Shown here: positions 8,207 to 30,525 of the stretch, piece after piece | How positions within the stretch are numbered: the stretch's first letter is position 1 | Layout of the letters: the number at the start of each line of letters is the position of its first letter | Virus record (IMG/VR): IMGVR_UViG_3300009508_000040 | Location: 1-31,032 of that record | Source: a virus | DNA length: 31,032 nucleotides | Reading direction: 5' to 3' (one strand) | Translations under genes and position numbers: made by a program | Notes under the pieces: generated by a model | The model's database searches: none | What the model saw: only the letters and a program-made list of their open reading frames with translations | What the model was told of the DNA's origin: nothing

Positions 8207-9131
8207 TAAATACTCCCATAATTGATTTAATTTTATCGTCAGTTAAATTCAGTATCGCACTTAAGTACTCTACTAGTTCTTCTTCCATTGACATTTCTTT
8301 AAGATTAAGCGTAGCTTCAGTACTTCGTTTTACAACTTTCTTATCAAGCAACTCAGAGTTTTTGATATTTGCTAAGTCAGCTACGTCACCTTCTATCTCA
8401 TAGATAGTATGGTGAAAGTCTGTGCCAATCATTTCATCTTCACTTTCTACTGTTCTTCTTAGTAGTTGTGGTAAATCAAATTCATGCCAACTCCAATCTC
8501 CATACATTCCTTCATCGTCAATAAGAAGATAGCCCGTCTTGACTACATCTCTGTGAAAAGATGTAGTCATAGGACTACCTGGATATACAATATTTCTCTG
8601 CGTATTGGAGTGGCTATGTAGGTCACCCGCGTATACTACAGGAAAGTTATCGAATCTATCCAAGTCAACCTCTGGTGTAACATGAGGAGGTATTTCACCC
8701 CTTACATGAGTAAACAAAGGTTTGTCAAAATTACATTTTTCTATTCCACCTTTTTTATGTAAGTCTACATAGGGTAGTATAGTTCCCCACGAATATTCTG
8801 TGGTTGTATCTATAATTTCAACTAAAGGGTTTATATCAGATGTTGCTCTCTTTAAATTACTAAAGAATGTTTTGTGTTTTTTAGTTGCTTCATGGTTTCC
8901 ATCAAAAATAATGGTTGGAATATCTACATCTTTAATAAAATCAAAGTATAGAGTAATTTCGTCCATTGAAGGAACACGATCAAATAAATCTCCACCTATA
9001 ATATGCAAGTCTACATTTTCTTCAATTTGATGTAGAATTTCAAAAAATAACTTGTATCTACTACAAGCCCATGCCATAGGCACATTTTTTTGACCAAGTT
9101 TTATATGCCAGTCTGCTGTAAATAATATCAC
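8175..9131 (-). CDS. SbcD/Mre11-like nuclease subunit (T4 gp47-like)
   Basis: A metallophosphoesterase-type nuclease that partners the SbcC-like ATPase downstream. Numbered from the chosen GTG start, the motifs are D7-W-H9, GGD48LFD, GN79H80E, H142 in THVRGE and GDLH172SH174. These are the two-metal-site residues of the Mre11 family. I chose GTG at 9131 because it overlaps the peroxiredoxin stop as GTGA and begins immediately before the first beta strand, with AGGAG upstream at a rather long 13-base spacing. An ATG at 9164 would add 11 mostly basic residues (MRMAARRRLRS) and a 37-base overlap; it cannot be excluded. Product 318 residues. Confidence 0.9.
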   Translation of the reverse strand: MILFTADWHIKLGQKNVPMAWACSRYKLFFEILHQIEENVDLHIIGGDLFDRVPSMDEITLYFDFIKDVDIPTIIFDGNHEATKKHKTFFSNLKRATSDINPLVEIIDTTTEYSWGTILPYVDLHKKGGIEKCNFDKPLFTHVRGEIPPHVTPEVDLDRFDNFPVVYAGDLHSHSNTQRNIVYPGSPMTTSFHRDVVKTGYLLIDDEGMYGDWSWHEFDLPQLLRRTVESEDEMIGTDFHHTIYEIEGDVADLANIKNSELLDKKVVKRSTEATLNLKEMSMEEELVEYLSAILNLTDDKIKSIMGVFNDYSKKATLG

Positions 9132-9637
9132 GCTACGAAGTCTTCTCCTGGCTGCCATGCGCAACCTGTAAGTCCACCTGCTTGTAAAGCTTGAAGTGTT
9201 CTTAATATTTCTTCTGCATTTCTACCTGTATCAAGTGCATTCACTGAATAATGTTGTATTTCATGGTCAGGGTTTAAAATAAAAGTAGCTCTGTAAGGAA
9301 CTCCTTCTTTATCATTATAAACACCTAACTCTTTTGCAAGTTCACTACCCGCATCACAACACAAAGGGTGTTGAATGTCTTTGATAATATCATTGCTTTC
9401 TTTCCAAGCCAACTTACAAAATTCATTATCAGGACTGAATCCTAAAACATCAGCATCGCCCAGCAGTTTATCCATATCGGCTATTTCTGTTGGGCAAATG
9501 AATGTAAAGTCTTTTGGATAAAAATAAACTACAGTCCACATGTTTTCTTGCAGTACATCTATATCAATAATTGTGTTATCAATATCACATGCTACTGTTG
9601 TAAAATCGGGGAATGCGTCTCCTATTGTATAATCCAT
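9128..9637 (-). CDS. 2-Cys peroxiredoxin (AhpC/Prx1 type)
   Basis: A thiol peroxidase that reduces hydrogen peroxide and organic peroxides. The peroxidatic cysteine is C48 in the classic DFTFICPTE motif, the active-site arginine is R116 in YRATF, and the resolving cysteine is C159 in GCAWQPGED near the C-terminus, giving a typical 2-Cys layout. The length of 169 is slightly short for Prx1. It has no signal peptide and acts in the cytoplasm. It sits between the ssDNA-binding protein and SbcD with GGAG ten bases before the ATG, so it is expressed with the replication and recombination genes. No reductase partner is in the window, so it must use a host thioredoxin-like donor. Confidence 0.95.
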   Translation of the reverse strand: MDYTIGDAFPDFTTVACDIDNTIIDIDVLQENMWTVVYFYPKDFTFICPTEIADMDKLLGDADVLGFSPDNEFCKLAWKESNDIIKDIQHPLCCDAGSELAKELGVYNDKEGVPYRATFILNPDHEIQHYSVNALDTGRNAEEILRTLQALQAGGLTGCAWQPGEDFVA

Positions 9638-19379: not shown

Positions 19380-20105
19380 TTAGCTAGATGCTTTTTCTTT
19401 TCTAGCGGCTCCGTCGTAATCGGAACAAGTTAAACCTCTACGGGTTAACATTGTTTTAACACCTCTTACAGTTTTGCCAATTTCGTCAGCGATAGCTTCA
19501 ACAGTCATGTTGTCGATATCATTAACTTCTGCTAAAGGATCAGCTTTTGATGAACCTTTAGTTTCTTTTTGCTTAGGTATAGCGTTAATATCGCCACTTC
19601 TAAGTAAGCTAAGAGCTTTTCCTCTGATAGAGTTAACAGATTTGCCTAGAGCTTCTGCGATTTCTTCAACAAAAGACCCACCATTTACCATAGAAGTAAA
19701 TGTAGCTTCCTCTTCGGGAGAGTAAGTTCTTACAGATTCTGGCTTCTCAGCTGGTTTTACATGGCCAGTTAATTCCATTGATAGAATTTTGCCCTGTATT
19801 GATTTAGCAGAAAATGCTCCACCTTCAAATGAAGATGCGATGTCTGCGTATGTGTACTGACCACTGTTGTCAGATACGAATTGTGATAAAGTAGCTTCTT
19901 GGTCTTCAGAGAATGTTCTGTTTGATACTGAAGATGCAAGTTCTACATCATGACCCATTTTTCTTAGCTTAGAAGAGACACTTCTTGTAGAAGTTTCTAA
20001 TTCTGCGGCTGCGTCTGCAACCATAGCTTGTGAGATAGGTGACTCACTTCCTACGAAGTCCACAAGTTGTTGTGTTCTTTCGTCTGTCCATTTTGGTAAT
20101 GCCAT
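19380..20105 (-). CDS. Multi-repeat HTH (SANT/GcrA-like) DNA-binding protein
   Basis: A 241-residue protein built of related units: an opening unit with KWTDERTQQLVDFV, then FSEDQEATL...KSIQGKILSM, YSPEEEATF...NSIRGKALSLL, and a last unit IADEIGKTVRGVKTMLTRRGL. Each has an acidic/aromatic start, a middle IAxxLGK helix and a basic recognition-type helix, as in SANT/Myb or GcrA-type HTH. It should bind DNA at several adjacent sites. Two shorter proteins in the window share the unit. It has AGGAAAC before the ATG and follows the ligase C-terminal gene in the P3 operon. Target unknown. Confidence 0.7.
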   Translation of the reverse strand: MALPKWTDERTQQLVDFVGSESPISQAMVADAAAELETSTRSVSSKLRKMGHDVELASSVSNRTFSEDQEATLSQFVSDNSGQYTYADIASSFEGGAFSAKSIQGKILSMELTGHVKPAEKPESVRTYSPEEEATFTSMVNGGSFVEEIAEALGKSVNSIRGKALSLLRSGDINAIPKQKETKGSSKADPLAEVNDIDNMTVEAIADEIGKTVRGVKTMLTRRGLTCSDYDGAARKEKASS

Positions 20106-20114
20106 TTTAGTTTC

Positions 20115-20861
20115 CTATATTTCTTTTAAGTTTGTTATTATTATAACACCCCTTTCTCGGGCTGCTTGTGTTTTTGCTGACTCAATGCCAGACTCGTTTA
20201 CTAGGATATTAACATCTTTTGTTAAACTGCTTTTAACAAGATAGCCCTGTGTTTCTAAATACTGTGTTGCTAGTGCTTTTGTCTTGAAGCTTTTTAGTTT
20301 ACCTGTGATACAAACGACGCCCTTATCAGCACTTTTTTCTTCAATTTTAGTTAGTTGTTGCCATCTAAAAGGAAGTCTATCATATCCATCGGTAAATTCT
20401 TCTATTAACCAATCTAGTAAATTATTGGTAGCAGCTGGGCCTAAGCCAGCTTCAGCACAAGTTTCTTCGGTAATATCTCGAATGTTCTTGATAACCGAAC
20501 AAATCTTGTTTGAAGCTGTTCGACCAATCAACTTAATAGAGAAAGCTGGTAGTAAGTCAACTAAGTCAACTTGTTTACTATTCTCAATCTCTCTACTGAG
20601 TTTAACTGCTAGTTTTTCGGATTGCAAAGCTTCAATCATTATTTCTAATGGAAGCTCGTATAAATCGTACAAATCTTTGATTTGTAGTTTTTCTACTGTG
20701 CGAGGTCCGAGACCTTTTATTTTGAGAGTAGAAGCAAAATGCTCAATCTTTTTACTCGTCTTGCCTGGGCAATTAGGGTTATTACAATATAGCTGGTCTT
20801 TTACCCACTCAAGTTCTGTCATACAAGATGGACAGTGCGTTGGCGGGATTATTTGCTTCAT
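20115..20861 (-). CDS. NAD-dependent DNA ligase, C-terminal half (Zn finger, HhH, BRCT)
   Basis: A 248-residue protein that begins right at the zinc finger (C10-x-x-C13 and C26-x-x-x-x-C31 in HCPSC and CNNPNCPG). It goes through the helix-hairpin-helix bundle (KIKGLGPRTVEKL and following) and ends with a BRCT domain (GVVCITGKLKSFK to the end). This is the DNA-binding half of LigA without the catalytic lysine. It should pair with the adenylation half encoded at 21285-22235. Its own promoter P3 gives a 21-base leader with AGAGAG. A lone DNA-gripping domain would be unusual, so a two-subunit ligase is the best reading. Confidence 0.88.
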   Translation of the reverse strand: MKQIIPPTHCPSCMTELEWVKDQLYCNNPNCPGKTSKKIEHFASTLKIKGLGPRTVEKLQIKDLYDLYELPLEIMIEALQSEKLAVKLSREIENSKQVDLVDLLPAFSIKLIGRTASNKICSVIKNIRDITEETCAEAGLGPAATNNLLDWLIEEFTDGYDRLPFRWQQLTKIEEKSADKGVVCITGKLKSFKTKALATQYLETQGYLVKSSLTKDVNILVNESGIESAKTQAARERGVIIITNLKEI

Positions 20862-20888
20862 GTGTTCTCTCTTAATTTCTATTTATAT

Positions 20889-20918
20889 ATTATAACAAAA
20901 TTCAGTTTCCATGTCAAG
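20889..20918 (-). promoter_or_regulatory. Promoter P3, sigma70-type, leftward
   Basis: TTGACA at 20917-20912, a 17-base spacer and TATAAT at 20894-20889; predicted +1 at about 20882. The -35 overlaps the last codons of the GIY-YIG-like gene, so the ligase C-terminal half is transcribed independently of the insertion. Confidence 0.88.
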
Positions 20919-21285
20919 ATTTATTTTTTGGAAAGTCCTGAAGAATGAGAGAATCAATTTTGAAACACTCAGTATGACCTCCAAACTTAAACATTGGAAT
21001 ATATTTATCTTGCTTATACATCTCATGTAGGTACAGTTCATGTGCCCACACATTATAAAGTGTGCTGCTCCAGACCTTCTGAATACGAATATCATACCCT
21101 CTGAAACCCCTGCTACGCTTTATAATATGTCGCCAATCTTTTCCACTAGCTATGCCTACCTTGATACACTCTCGCTCAAATGTTTTTGTGTTCACTAACA
21201 CTATTCCATAGAGCACACCTTCTCTGTCCCTTTCTTCAGGGTTATTTTCAAAGTAGGTTTGATTGTATATGCCTTTACTAGACAC
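20914..21285 (-). CDS. GIY-YIG-like nuclease lying between ligase halves
   Basis: A 123-residue protein. VLYGIVLVN (24-32) followed by IKVGIA (41-46) resembles the two-strand GIY-YIG core in its T5orf172-like variant. WSSTLYNVWAHELYLHEMY then supplies a candidate catalytic Glu (E83) next to a helix, and F-G-G-H-T-E-C-F matches the late motif of the same group. The start is GTG at 21285, overlapping the TAG of the ligase N-terminal gene by one base. Free-standing GIY-YIG genes are common homing endonucleases. The fold is judged by motif only, and the catalytic Arg is not certain. Confidence 0.6.
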   Translation of the reverse strand: MSSKGIYNQTYFENNPEERDREGVLYGIVLVNTKTFERECIKVGIASGKDWRHIIKRSRGFRGYDIRIQKVWSSTLYNVWAHELYLHEMYKQDKYIPMFKFGGHTECFKIDSLILQDFPKNKS

Positions 21286-22235
21286 TAATTAGCTCGGGAT
21301 AGTATTCTGGGTATAATTTCTCCACTACGTATAACTTCTACTAGACAACCTATTTCTAAATTAAGGTCGGTTATATACTTCATATTGTGCAGAGTTGCCC
21401 TACTAACTGTAGCGCCATCTATCTCTATAGGTTCAAGAATAGCTACAGGAGCCACAACCCCTGACTTGCCAACATTCCATACAACATTAACTAATTTAGT
21501 TATAACTCCTTCATTACGCTGCTTGAGCGCATATGCACCTCGGGGGTGCTTAGAGGTATATCCTAAGGCATCAAAGTCCTTATAGTCATCTATACGAAAA
21601 ACAAGTCCATCATCGGGATATGCAGTCCAGTCATTAGACAGAACTGTATCAAATCCAAATGATTCTAAATAAGACATATCGATACTCCAGCACTCATTCC
21701 ATGAATCTTGTACTCCATATGCTATGAAGCGCAAATCTCTGCTGTTAAATTCTTCTACATCTTTAAGGTTGAGAGCACCCGCAGCATAGTTCCGAGCGTT
21801 CTTGATAGTTTTGGGAGCAACTACTTCGCCAGTAATCTGAATTAGATGACCTTTAAACTCGCCTAATGAATTAGGTACTAAAGATTTAACATTGTCTGTA
21901 ATATCCAGACCACGCTTTCCATCTCCACGAGTAAGGGCTTTGTGTAGCTGTCCCTCAACATAAAGCAATGATACAGCAGCTCCATCTAACTTAGGAGAAA
22001 CAACTATCTCTCCCTTGTACTTACCGAAAGGCTGCTTATCAAGCTCATTGGAAAATATCTTCTGTAATGAATACATCTGAAATGCATGAGGAACTCTATT
22101 GTCTCTACTAGAGAAACCGACTTCATCATACTGAGCATATGTAGCTAGCTTATCAAACTGTTCATCTGACATCGTAGGTTTACCATTATAGTAATCTTCG
22201 GACGCTTGCTGTAGTATTGCTTTTATATTTTCCAT
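21285..22235 (-). CDS. NAD-dependent DNA ligase, N-terminal half (adenylation and OB fold)
   Basis: A 316-residue protein with the NMN-binding Ia segment (YYNGKPTMSDEQFDKL, 15-30), the adenylation lysine K82 in PKLDGAA, the RN-AAGAL motif and the OB fold (WNVGKSGVVAPVAILEP to the end). It stops exactly where the zinc finger of bacterial LigA would follow. It is short for LigA (about 670), but together with the 248-residue partner it makes 564. It seals nicks using NAD+. The promoter P4 +1 coincides with the A of its ATG, so the mRNA should be leaderless. Confidence 0.93.
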   Translation of the reverse strand: MENIKAILQQASEDYYNGKPTMSDEQFDKLATYAQYDEVGFSSRDNRVPHAFQMYSLQKIFSNELDKQPFGKYKGEIVVSPKLDGAAVSLLYVEGQLHKALTRGDGKRGLDITDNVKSLVPNSLGEFKGHLIQITGEVVAPKTIKNARNYAAGALNLKDVEEFNSRDLRFIAYGVQDSWNECWSIDMSYLESFGFDTVLSNDWTAYPDDGLVFRIDDYKDFDALGYTSKHPRGAYALKQRNEGVITKLVNVVWNVGKSGVVAPVAILEPIEIDGATVSRATLHNMKYITDLNLEIGCLVEVIRSGEIIPRILSRAN

Positions 22236-22241
22236 TTATAT

Positions 22242-22271
22242 ATTATATCAAAAATCACAGGCAAAGTCAAG
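22242..22271 (-). promoter_or_regulatory. Promoter P4, sigma70-type, leftward, leaderless
   Basis: TTGACT at 22270-22265, a 17-base spacer and TATAAT at 22247-22242. Counting seven bases on puts +1 at 22235, the A of the ligase ATG. Confidence 0.88.
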
Positions 22272-24835: not shown

Positions 24836-25465
24836 TTATACACTTTCCCAAAACTCATCAGCAAGTTGGTCTAGCATTTCACTAGGATATATGGACTCTC
24901 CTTTAACTTCATACTCAGCATGCCAGTCAAAATCTTCAACTGTGGTATCAATACTAGGGTACATCTCATTAAATAACTCTATTAGTTCCTCTCCATCAGT
25001 TTCATTGCACTCTCCTTCAATAGATTCCCAATCGTCCCATTTTTGTGTATCAAAATATTGTTTACCCATAAAGTTTCTAAACTCATCTTCATAAGTCATA
25101 GTAGCACTTATATTATCATCATACTTATTAGCAAAGTATTGTAATATAACTAGGACTAATTCTACTGGTTGTCTCCATGCTGAATATCCACTAATATAGC
25201 TGTCTTGCATTTCTTCAATGTTGCACCATTTAGCCCCTACATTTGTACAATACCAATCATATGAATTATTTAAATACCCATCATTGTCAAATGACTTATC
25301 TACATTATCCATAAAAGGTTGATTTTCTATTTCAGCATAATCTTCGTAATCATAAGGGTTGCCATCATAGTCATTTCTAGTACCTTTTATTGTTTTAATT
25401 GATGAATTAAATTCTTCATCAGTTAATCCTTCTATACTTATATTAAAATATACATGATTTGCCAT
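24836..25465 (-). CDS. Api92/YubB-like ferredoxin-fold phage protein
   Basis: A 209-residue very acidic protein. The opening MANHVYFNISIEG and the central WYCTNVGAKWCNI resemble the Api92-like (DUF1281-type) ferredoxin-fold proteins seen in phages and plasmids, which share a first beta strand of this kind and a W-x-x-x-x-x-G-x-K-W motif. Many Asp, Glu and Tyr; acidic throughout, so DNA mimicry is conceivable but untested. The start overlaps the MazG stop as TAATG. Function unknown. Confidence 0.55.
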   Translation of the reverse strand: MANHVYFNISIEGLTDEEFNSSIKTIKGTRNDYDGNPYDYEDYAEIENQPFMDNVDKSFDNDGYLNNSYDWYCTNVGAKWCNIEEMQDSYISGYSAWRQPVELVLVILQYFANKYDDNISATMTYEDEFRNFMGKQYFDTQKWDDWESIEGECNETDGEELIELFNEMYPSIDTTVEDFDWHAEYEVKGESIYPSEMLDQLADEFWESV

Positions 25466-28894: not shown

Positions 28895-29200
28895 CTATAT
28901 GTAGAAGCTTTCGCCACAGCCGCAGCGTCCACTCTCTTGATTATTTGTGATAACAAACTCCTCATTAAGTCCATTAACCACCCAATCCAATTTTGCATCT
29001 GTTAGATACTCCTTACTGTATATATCAATTACTAATATATCTTGATATATCACATCAGTTAAGTCAGGACTCTCGGCATAACTTAACTCATATGTATATC
29101 CTCCACAGCCGCCACCTGTGACTTTAAGGCGAGCGCCCCAAGCAGAACTTGAGGCGACTCTCTGTTTTAACATTGTTAAGGCTTTACCTGTTATTTTCAT
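28895..29200 (-). CDS. A-type iron-sulfur carrier (IscA/ErpA/HesB-like)
   Basis: A 101-residue Fe-S cluster carrier. The three conserved cysteines are C32 in GGGCGG and the C86-G-C88 pair in GRCGCGESF, with the DIYSKEYL segment between. It would deliver Fe-S clusters or iron to client enzymes, and the window has several iron enzymes (NrdB and the oxygenases). The start is ATG 29200, overlapping the stop of the small upstream gene as ATGA; a start at 29239 would ignore that gene and lacks a ribosome site. Host-derived, by family distribution. Confidence 0.9.
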   Translation of the reverse strand: MKITGKALTMLKQRVASSSAWGARLKVTGGGCGGYTYELSYAESPDLTDVIYQDILVIDIYSKEYLTDAKLDWVVNGLNEEFVITNNQESGRCGCGESFYI

Positions 29201-29355
29201 AGTAATGGTAGCATCGCTAGATACATTGTTCCAAAACATACAGTAAACATAATAATTACCTCACATAATGCCCCATCAGGGCAATAGTTATCTTTAACTT
29301 TCCGAATCGCTTGCAAAAGTGCATAACGATTAAGAAATCGTTTTGCATATTGCAT
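29197..29355 (-). CDS. Small membrane-anchored protein (52 aa)
   Basis: A 52-residue gene. The ATG at 29355 has a strong AGGAG six bases before it. The N-terminal half is basic (AKRFLNRYALLQAIRKVK); C25 and C31 flank a short loop; a C-terminal hydrophobic segment (VIIMFTVCFGTMYLAMLPLL, 33-52) can span the membrane. Its TGA overlaps the Fe-S carrier ATG. Function unknown. A tail-anchored layout is seen in some lysis regulators, but this is only an analogy. Confidence 0.65.
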   Translation of the reverse strand: MQYAKRFLNRYALLQAIRKVKDNYCPDGALCEVIIMFTVCFGTMYLAMLPLL

Positions 29356-29364
29356 TAGTTTCTC

Positions 29365-29796
29365 CTAGCCTATTTTAATCGTCTTAGGCTTCTCTTCGTC
29401 AGGTGTGTTGACCTGAAGGTTAATAACTAACATACCATTTTTGAATCCCGCGTCGGCTATCTCTACCCAATCGCCCAAAGTGAAAATTCTGCTAAAGGTT
29501 TTACCACTAAGTCCTTTATGGACATAGCTTTCCTCTCCAGAATCAAGACCTTGCTTTTCTGTTCCTTCTATAGTAAGTTTATTCTTGTGTTGCTTGATGT
29601 CGATATCATCTTTTGACCAACCTGGCAGAGCCATTTCAATACGGTAGCCCGTATCTCCAACTGCTACTAAGTTGTATCTTGGATAGTTAGTAAGAGGTGA
29701 ACTTTCATTTCTCCTAGTTAATTCCTTATTCAAGCGATCGAACCCGACAAATAATTTGTCAAAGTCGTTAAAGTTTAATGCTGATAATCCAGTCAT
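29365..29796 (-). CDS. Small heat shock protein Hsp20 (IbpA-like)
   Basis: An ATP-independent holdase of the alpha-crystallin family. The 143-residue product has an N-terminal arm (FDKLFVGFDRLN), the core from PRYNLVAVGDTGYRIEMALPG to SRIFTLGDWVEI, and a C-terminal segment ending in PKTIKIG. It is known from T4-like cyanophages and other marine phages. The start is ATG 29796 with AGGAG seven bases upstream; the longer frame (MPQGSH...) is rejected. Its mRNA is expected to start at P7, 226 bases upstream, leaving a structured leader. Confidence 0.93.
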   Translation of the reverse strand: MTGLSALNFNDFDKLFVGFDRLNKELTRRNESSPLTNYPRYNLVAVGDTGYRIEMALPGWSKDDIDIKQHKNKLTIEGTEKQGLDSGEESYVHKGLSGKTFSRIFTLGDWVEIADAGFKNGMLVINLQVNTPDEEKPKTIKIG

Positions 29797-29812
29797 TGGT
29801 TTTCTCCTATTT

Positions 29813-29829
29813 GCGTCCTTTCGGCACGC
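29813..29829 (-). promoter_or_regulatory. GAAA-tetraloop hairpin upstream of hsp20 ribosome site
   Basis: On the minus strand GCGTGCC and GGACGC form six pairs with one bulged G, closing on the GNRA loop GAAA. It ends four bases before the AGGAG (29808-29804) of hsp20. It could tune or stabilise translation initiation. Confidence 0.5.
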
Positions 29830-29867
29830 GCTGTGAGACCCTTGCGGCATCTCGGTTATTATAATAC

Positions 29868-30067: not shown

Positions 30068-30208
30068 TCAGTCCTCGTCAAAATCTATCTGCCCATCGGC
30101 TTTTAGATAATCTAGTGTATGACTAATTCCGTTTCTTTTACCTAAATTGTAAAAGATATGTCCACTAGCTACTGCTGTAAATATTAAAAATGTTATTTGC
30201 CAATCCAT
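30068..30208 (-). CDS. Small membrane protein (46 aa)
   Basis: A 46-residue gene. The ATG at 30208 has GGAG seven bases upstream and overlaps the end of the tRNA-bearing gene by 16 bases. A hydrophobic N-terminal segment (WQITFLIFTAVASGHIFYNL, 3-22) is followed by a short basic turn and an acidic tail (DGQIDFDED). Single-pass membrane topology is likely. It ends ten bases before the -35 of P7. Function unknown. Confidence 0.6.
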   Translation of the reverse strand: MDWQITFLIFTAVASGHIFYNLGKRNGISHTLDYLKADGQIDFDED

Positions 30209-30525
30209 TTGACATCTCCTCTTGGTATCACTTGATACGCACCTTTGTTGAAGGCAGGGGCAACAGTATATTTCTTACTAATCTCGAGTCTTTCCTCTTT
30301 TGTTAAGGTAGTTTTAGTACTCGTAGATTTACTACTGGTGGAGCTGGAGGGAATCGAACCCACGACCTCATGCTTGCAAAGCACGCGCTCTCCCGACTGA
30401 GCTACAGCCCCTTTAAAATTTTTGGTTTCCTGAGCTACGAAGTCAGGTCTCTTTGCTTTCTTCCATGCGTTTGTTTTTCTTTTGCGTCCGCTTGGTGAAT
30501 AACGCATACTACAATTTATAATCAT
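30193..30525 (-). CDS. Conserved phage protein whose reading frame runs through a tRNA
   Basis: A 110-residue frame. Both ends look genuine. The start MIINCSMRYSPSGRKRKT has AAGGAA and a promoter (P8). The end (KKYTVAPAFNKGAYQV then RGDVKWIGK) resembles the C-terminus of small basic phage proteins. Residues 39-64 are the translation of the embedded tRNA-Ala gene, in phase, without a stop. No ATG, GTG or TTG follows the tRNA until near the C-terminus, so the tail can only be made by translation through the tRNA region. Without the insert the protein would be about 85 residues. If the tRNA is cut out of the transcript the protein is not made, so the two products compete. Confidence 0.6.
   Translation of the reverse strand: MIINCSMRYSPSGRKRKTNAWKKAKRPDFVAQETKNFKGAVAQSGERVLCKHEVVGSIPSSSTSSKSTSTKTTLTKEERLEISKKYTVAPAFNKGAYQVIPRGDVKWIGK
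30336..30411 (-). tRNA. tRNA-Ala (anticodon TGC), with encoded CCA
   Basis: A complete 76-base cloverleaf on the minus strand. The acceptor stem GGGGCTG/CAGCTCC has one G-U pair. The D arm GCTC/GAGC is present. The anticodon stem CGTGC/GCATG carries loop TTTGCAA, anticodon TGC. The T arm GTGGG/CCCTC has loop TTCGATT with a single T-T mismatch in the second pair. The discriminator is A and CCA is encoded. It sits inside a protein-coding frame on the same strand. Codon supply or, less likely, an attachment site are possible roles. Confidence 0.95.

Follow-up and report, generated by a model that had tools for sequence, protein, structure and literature searches.

A 31,032-nucleotide stretch of viral DNA (hereafter the window; IMG/VR record IMGVR_UViG_3300009508_000040) has the domains of an NAD+-dependent DNA ligase parted between two open reading frames, at the boundary between OB fold and zinc finger, with a gene for a GIY-YIG-like protein lying between them. 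Did this gene split the ligase, as a sequence-only reading of the window had proposed, or did it come to a junction that already existed? The second answer is very probably the right one. We propose a two-subunit ligase of the T5 type, which would have been split only once, long ago, in the common ancestor of the T5-like phages or still earlier, the GIY-YIG gene being a later insert in a marine sub-lineage. LigA, with the nucleotidyltransfer domain and the OB fold, and LigB, with the zinc finger, HhH and BRCT domains, would assemble into one nick-sealing enzyme, with a separate sigma-70-type promoter presumably driving each half. The GIY-YIG gene would have been inserted between the ligA stop and the ligB promoter, a site at which it would share the ligA transcript. 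Most likely it encodes a free-standing nuclease of homing-endonuclease origin, whose DNA-recognition repeats would have been lost, and the gene would now be stably inherited.

The ligA gene (21285..22235, minus strand) encodes a 316 aa subunit A consisting of the Ia/adenylation domain and the OB fold (Pfam PF01653, 3e-31, and PF03120, 3e-24), in which Lys82 corresponds to the catalytic Lys115 of E. coli. The ligB gene (20115..20861, minus strand) encodes a 248 aa subunit B with a C4 zinc finger, HhH and BRCT. In PHROGs the ligase halves are already separate families, phrog_3359 (3.7e-105 with the ligA product) and phrog_3498 (4e-59 with the ligB product). On the 652-position LigA model TIGR00575, the ligA product stops at about position 376 and the ligB product covers positions 387-648, so the first half ends and the second begins at the zinc-finger boundary, as the sequence-only reading had it. 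By alignment, the cut falls between residues 392 and 399 of E. coli LigA. Compared with that enzyme, K115, D117 and G118 of the KxDG motif, R136, E173, R200 and K314 are kept, as are the NAD-binding residues Y22, D32 and D36, Y35 being replaced by Phe. The zinc finger gives a weak Pfam match, and all four of its cysteine ligands (C408/411/426/432, E. coli numbering) are kept. A search for adenylation domains found this gene alone in the record, which is a genome fragment; there is thus no fused ligase elsewhere in it.

A ligase in two subunits is not new: every T5-like phage that we examined has one. The annotation ligA/ligB stands in the records of phage T5 and hundreds of T5-like phages, and ligase subunits A and B are reported for phage Stitch, where HNH homing endonucleases are absent (PMC4319617), and named in the paper on Seabear (PMC6813398). 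T5 has the identical split point and a promoter upstream of ligB, in the gene order D3 ... ligA-promoter-ligB-D5-helicase. The window keeps this order: the gene adjoining ligB (19380..20105, minus strand) is a D5 homologue (phrog_323, D5-like, 3.4e-44), and synteny with T5 extends over D3, D5, helicase, primase and polymerase. The difference lies at the junction. In T5, ligA and ligB are adjacent, and the interval contains the annotated promoters P-K28b and P-K28a but lacks a nuclease gene, whereas the window carries the GIY-YIG gene there. Among the matches listed, the window LigA is about 44% identical to LigA proteins of T5-like phages.

The best PDB match of both halves is 9HU3/9I5I, a two-chain ligase (9hu3_A, 1.3e-68; 9hu3_B, 1.9e-31) whose second chain is named 'DNA ligase subunit B' and whose chain A is the protein of Providencia phage vB_PreS_PR1 (100% identity over 326 residues); a literature search found no publication on these entries. 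That two chains with such names share one entry suggests that the subunits form a complex, and by analogy with this homologue the halves encoded in the window would also associate and be active. Window and PR1 ligases have substitutions in common at E. coli positions K290 (Arg in the window, likewise in T5 and PR1) and R208, and both have a gap at R277. They differ in that only a terminator and a promoter, and no gene, stand between ligA and ligB in PR1.

The promoter of ligB, P3 (20889..20917, minus strand; TTGACA-17-TATAAT), matches the consensus at 12/12 positions and has an extended -10. Relatives have it at an unchanged position whether or not they carry the GIY-YIG gene, so the promoter claimed in front of the second half is well founded, the transcript itself being predicted from it. 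The ligA promoter (22242..22270, minus strand; TTGACT-17-TATAAT; 11/12 consensus) is conserved in most of the relatives inspected. In the window (20914-20917), the GIY-YIG gene ends with a TGA that lies within the -35 box of P3; in several loci devoid of this gene, the -35 hexamer takes in the TGA of ligA, and in locus L352 a 50-aa ORF stops within the box as well. Unrelated proteins preceding the promoter (in the window, L145 and L352) consequently end alike, for example in KN(K/S)S, a C-terminus dictated by the promoter. The stretch from ligA to the GIY-YIG gene holds a changing cargo of 0-1 kb in relatives. Since the promoter is kept whatever lies upstream of it and the cargo varies, the junction appears to take inserts while the promoter stays intact, and the GIY-YIG gene can be understood as an insert of this kind that has reached fixation. 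In marine T5-like phages, ligA-ligB would thus be a standing insertion site.

Several cargoes deserve mention in their own right. Three loci (L081, L082 and L089) encode a SET-domain protein of 98 aa (Pfam SET, 1.8e-10) between ligA and the GIY-YIG gene; to our knowledge, phages are not expected to carry SET methyltransferase-like genes. In two others (L352:234-2548 and L354:217-2549), a carbamoyltransferase and an ORF of 320-334 aa are found between the GIY-YIG gene and ligB. Within the window, but away from the junction, a 209-aa protein with a MANHVYF start (24836-25465, minus strand) resembles the ligA-junction cargo of relatives (DUF1281_C-like), which suggests that this family moves between sites.

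What is the gene at the junction? It spans 20914..21285 (minus strand), encodes 123 aa, and shares base 21285 with ligA through TAGTG, in which its GTG start overlaps the ligA stop. The window protein has no match in Pfam, but two divergent orthologues match MUG113 (3.9e-6) and T5orf172 (1.2e-4), and in PHROGs it matches phrog_681, endonuclease, at 4e-11. Across 23 sequences, two of them distant endonucleases, five residues never vary, and the GIY-YIG pattern fits them: Y26 as the tyrosine of the first motif, G44 as the glycine of the second, R57 as the catalytic arginine and E83 as the metal-binding glutamate, the fifth, K42, replacing in this family the tyrosine of the second motif. The AlphaFold model (pLDDT 84) matches phage T5orf172/homing endonuclease models in BFVD, down to 1.6e-6 with a TM of about 0.6. 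A Foldseek search of PDB with the model gave nothing below E 0.25; structural realignment with the GIY-YIG domains of Slx1, UvrC and I-TevI was more telling, although its Z scores of 3.4-4.9 are weak alone. The open reading frames lie exactly as the earlier reading placed them. The orthologue and fold matches bear out the GIY-YIG label, and the gene can be described as a stand-alone T5orf172/MUG113-type gene.

A longer relative indicates which part of a nuclease this is. The C-terminal domain of VPHD181_0052 of Vibrio phage D181 (phrog_681) aligns with the 123-aa protein at 38% identity, including the IY.ETYF start. VPHD181_0052 differs in having zinc/DNA-binding parts, DUF723 and a treble clef (zinc finger), N-terminal to its T5orf172 domain, and its gene adjoins a tail fibre gene. 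In view of its resemblance to the C-terminal domain, the window protein is probably the catalytic module alone, with no recognition domain.

The distribution of the gene was examined next to its rate of change. Among 194 copies, 180 immediately precede ligB and 12 fall at contig ends; the remaining 2 are the distant endonucleases mentioned above. A tblastn search of 50,697 phage records with the gene returned four records only, 2 Vibrio and 2 Acinetobacter phages, in which it matched at other genes. For the window's own clade, loci were fetched with the window's D5 as bait. All 69 testable ones carry the gene, 67 in place and 2 between ligA and a 3-kb insert. The latter two, L352 and L354, had been candidates for gene losses, which we rejected, because the gene is present further upstream and the carbamoyltransferase insert separates it from ligB. 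Near-identical relatives of which some have the gene and others an empty site were not seen; absence is confined to other lineages. The dN/dS of the gene, leaving out distant pairs for which the estimate did not converge, is about 0.05-0.12, like that of ligA, ligB and D5, and indicates purifying selection. Its distances correlate with those of its neighbours about as well as the neighbours' do with each other, and it is often better conserved than ligA or ligB. The gene is thus stably inherited, and not sporadic, in the window's clade. In one contig (L004:10421-10742) it is frameshifted, perhaps through a sequencing error, perhaps because the copy is broken. In L163, L150 and L179, D5 and the GIY-YIG gene are nearer to the window's lineage than are ligA and ligB, which hints at recombination or uneven rates.

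Stable inheritance of this kind could mean that the gene has been domesticated, as a nuclease conserved in the replication region that may work together with the ligase, and we give this nearly an even chance of being true. Retention in 69/69 clade loci, purifying selection on a par with the neighbours, conservation often above that of ligA and ligB, and the overlap with the ligA stop all agree with it. Yet the gene is absent from most T5-like phages, hence it is not needed by the ligase, and a selfish gene that had recently been under selection and become fixed would look similar.

Alternatively, the gene may still be an active free-standing homing endonuclease, cutting the ligA-ligB junctions of co-infecting relatives that lack it and spreading into the site. 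The Seg nucleases of T4 behave in this way. We hold this to be possible, but not probable. The GIY-YIG signature is intact, the gene is always found between ligA and ligB, its presence is patchy, over four groups of the tree, and the junction is a hotspot for inserts. Against this, a recognition domain is lacking outside the 123 residues, unlike the DUF723-zinc finger-T5orf172 arrangement of Vibrio phage D181; the gene is fixed in the window's clade, with zero losses; and its distances follow those of the neighbouring genes.

A more specific partnership, in which the GIY-YIG protein would be a fixed, co-transcribed nicking or junction nuclease whose breaks are sealed by the split ligase, we consider improbable. 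If it were true, such a nuclease-ligase pair could, for example, make or repair the nicks of T5-type genomes.

We now come to the origin of the split. Homing-endonuclease genes do interrupt phage genes (PMC10448857), and a GIY-YIG homing endonuclease might have invaded a whole ligase gene and split it at the OB/zinc boundary, the pieces then becoming a two-subunit enzyme. All testable loci of the window's clade have the gene lodged between the halves, and its protein family includes homing endonucleases, as this history would lead one to expect. The relatives tell otherwise. In a maximum-likelihood tree, the split ligases (20/20 sampled, that of T5 included) form a single clade (UFBoot 99) relative to 10 fused ones taken from jumbo and other phages, E. 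coli and one IMG/VR contig (L049). One clade of split ligases points to one splitting event, at or before the T5-like ancestor. IMG/VR loci were fetched by way of the neighbouring D5 gene, so that their choice was independent of the GIY-YIG gene; in 66 of these both halves were present, all were split, and 57/66 had no GIY-YIG gene. These 57 marine loci have the split and the ligB promoter, as do T5 and PR1. From ligA stop to ligB start, loci without the gene mostly measure 51-90 bp, with the promoter alone in between.

Searches that included an HMM scan found the same split without the gene in Demerecviridae of Aeromonas, Vibrio, Pantoea, Klebsiella, E. coli, Providencia, Serratia, Erwinia and Enterobacter; some Demerecviridae have small unrelated ORFs of unknown function between ligA and ligB. 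Fitch parsimony on the joined LigA + LigB tree required 3 changes for the GIY-YIG gene, with an ancestor devoid of it, compared with at least 21 in 500 label shuffles. Since relatives have the split and the ligB promoter without the gene, and the inferred ancestor was gene-free, invasion by the GIY-YIG gene was not the cause of the split. We read the split as one ancient event that predates the gene, which came later, in one marine T5-like lineage, and was then fixed.

Invasion by this gene as the origin of the split is therefore very unlikely, all the more as its four matches in phage records lie at other genes. Of the earlier proposal of a two-subunit ligase made from a split gene, the two-subunit part holds, being known from T5 ligA/ligB and 9HU3/9I5I; the part ascribing the split to the GIY-YIG gene falls, since a search of relatives yielded the same split with the same ligB promoter and no such gene. 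The parsimony result would be compatible with some other endonuclease, since lost, having been there when the ligase split, but nothing points to one. Finally, that the junction is an intron, with the ligase halves joined by splicing, has next to no probability. Phage ICP1 does have spliced genes with T5orf172 genes beside them (PMC10448857), but the gap in relatives goes down to 51 bp, promoter included; ligB is provided with a start and a promoter of its own; 9HU3 contains the two subunits as distinct chains; and a search for introns or RNA elements at the junction gave no intron family match, the only riboswitch match being sub-threshold and lying elsewhere.

The T5-type ligase with a later insert, which we prefer, carries a more general caution: a nuclease gene found between two gene halves need not have split them, and here relatives date both split and promoter earlier. 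What is new is modest, namely that in a marine T5-like lineage the ligA-ligB junction harbours a GIY-YIG gene that is fixed.

Elsewhere in the window, the only tRNA, tRNA-Ala(TGC) (30336-30411, minus strand), is not matched exactly anywhere in the bacterial genome set; a 110-aa ORF spanning it (30193-30525, minus strand) is probably spurious. Three genes, all on the minus strand, are host-like, and encode an HSP20 chaperone (29365-29850), an A-type iron-sulphur carrier (28895-29239) and a peroxiredoxin (9128-9637).
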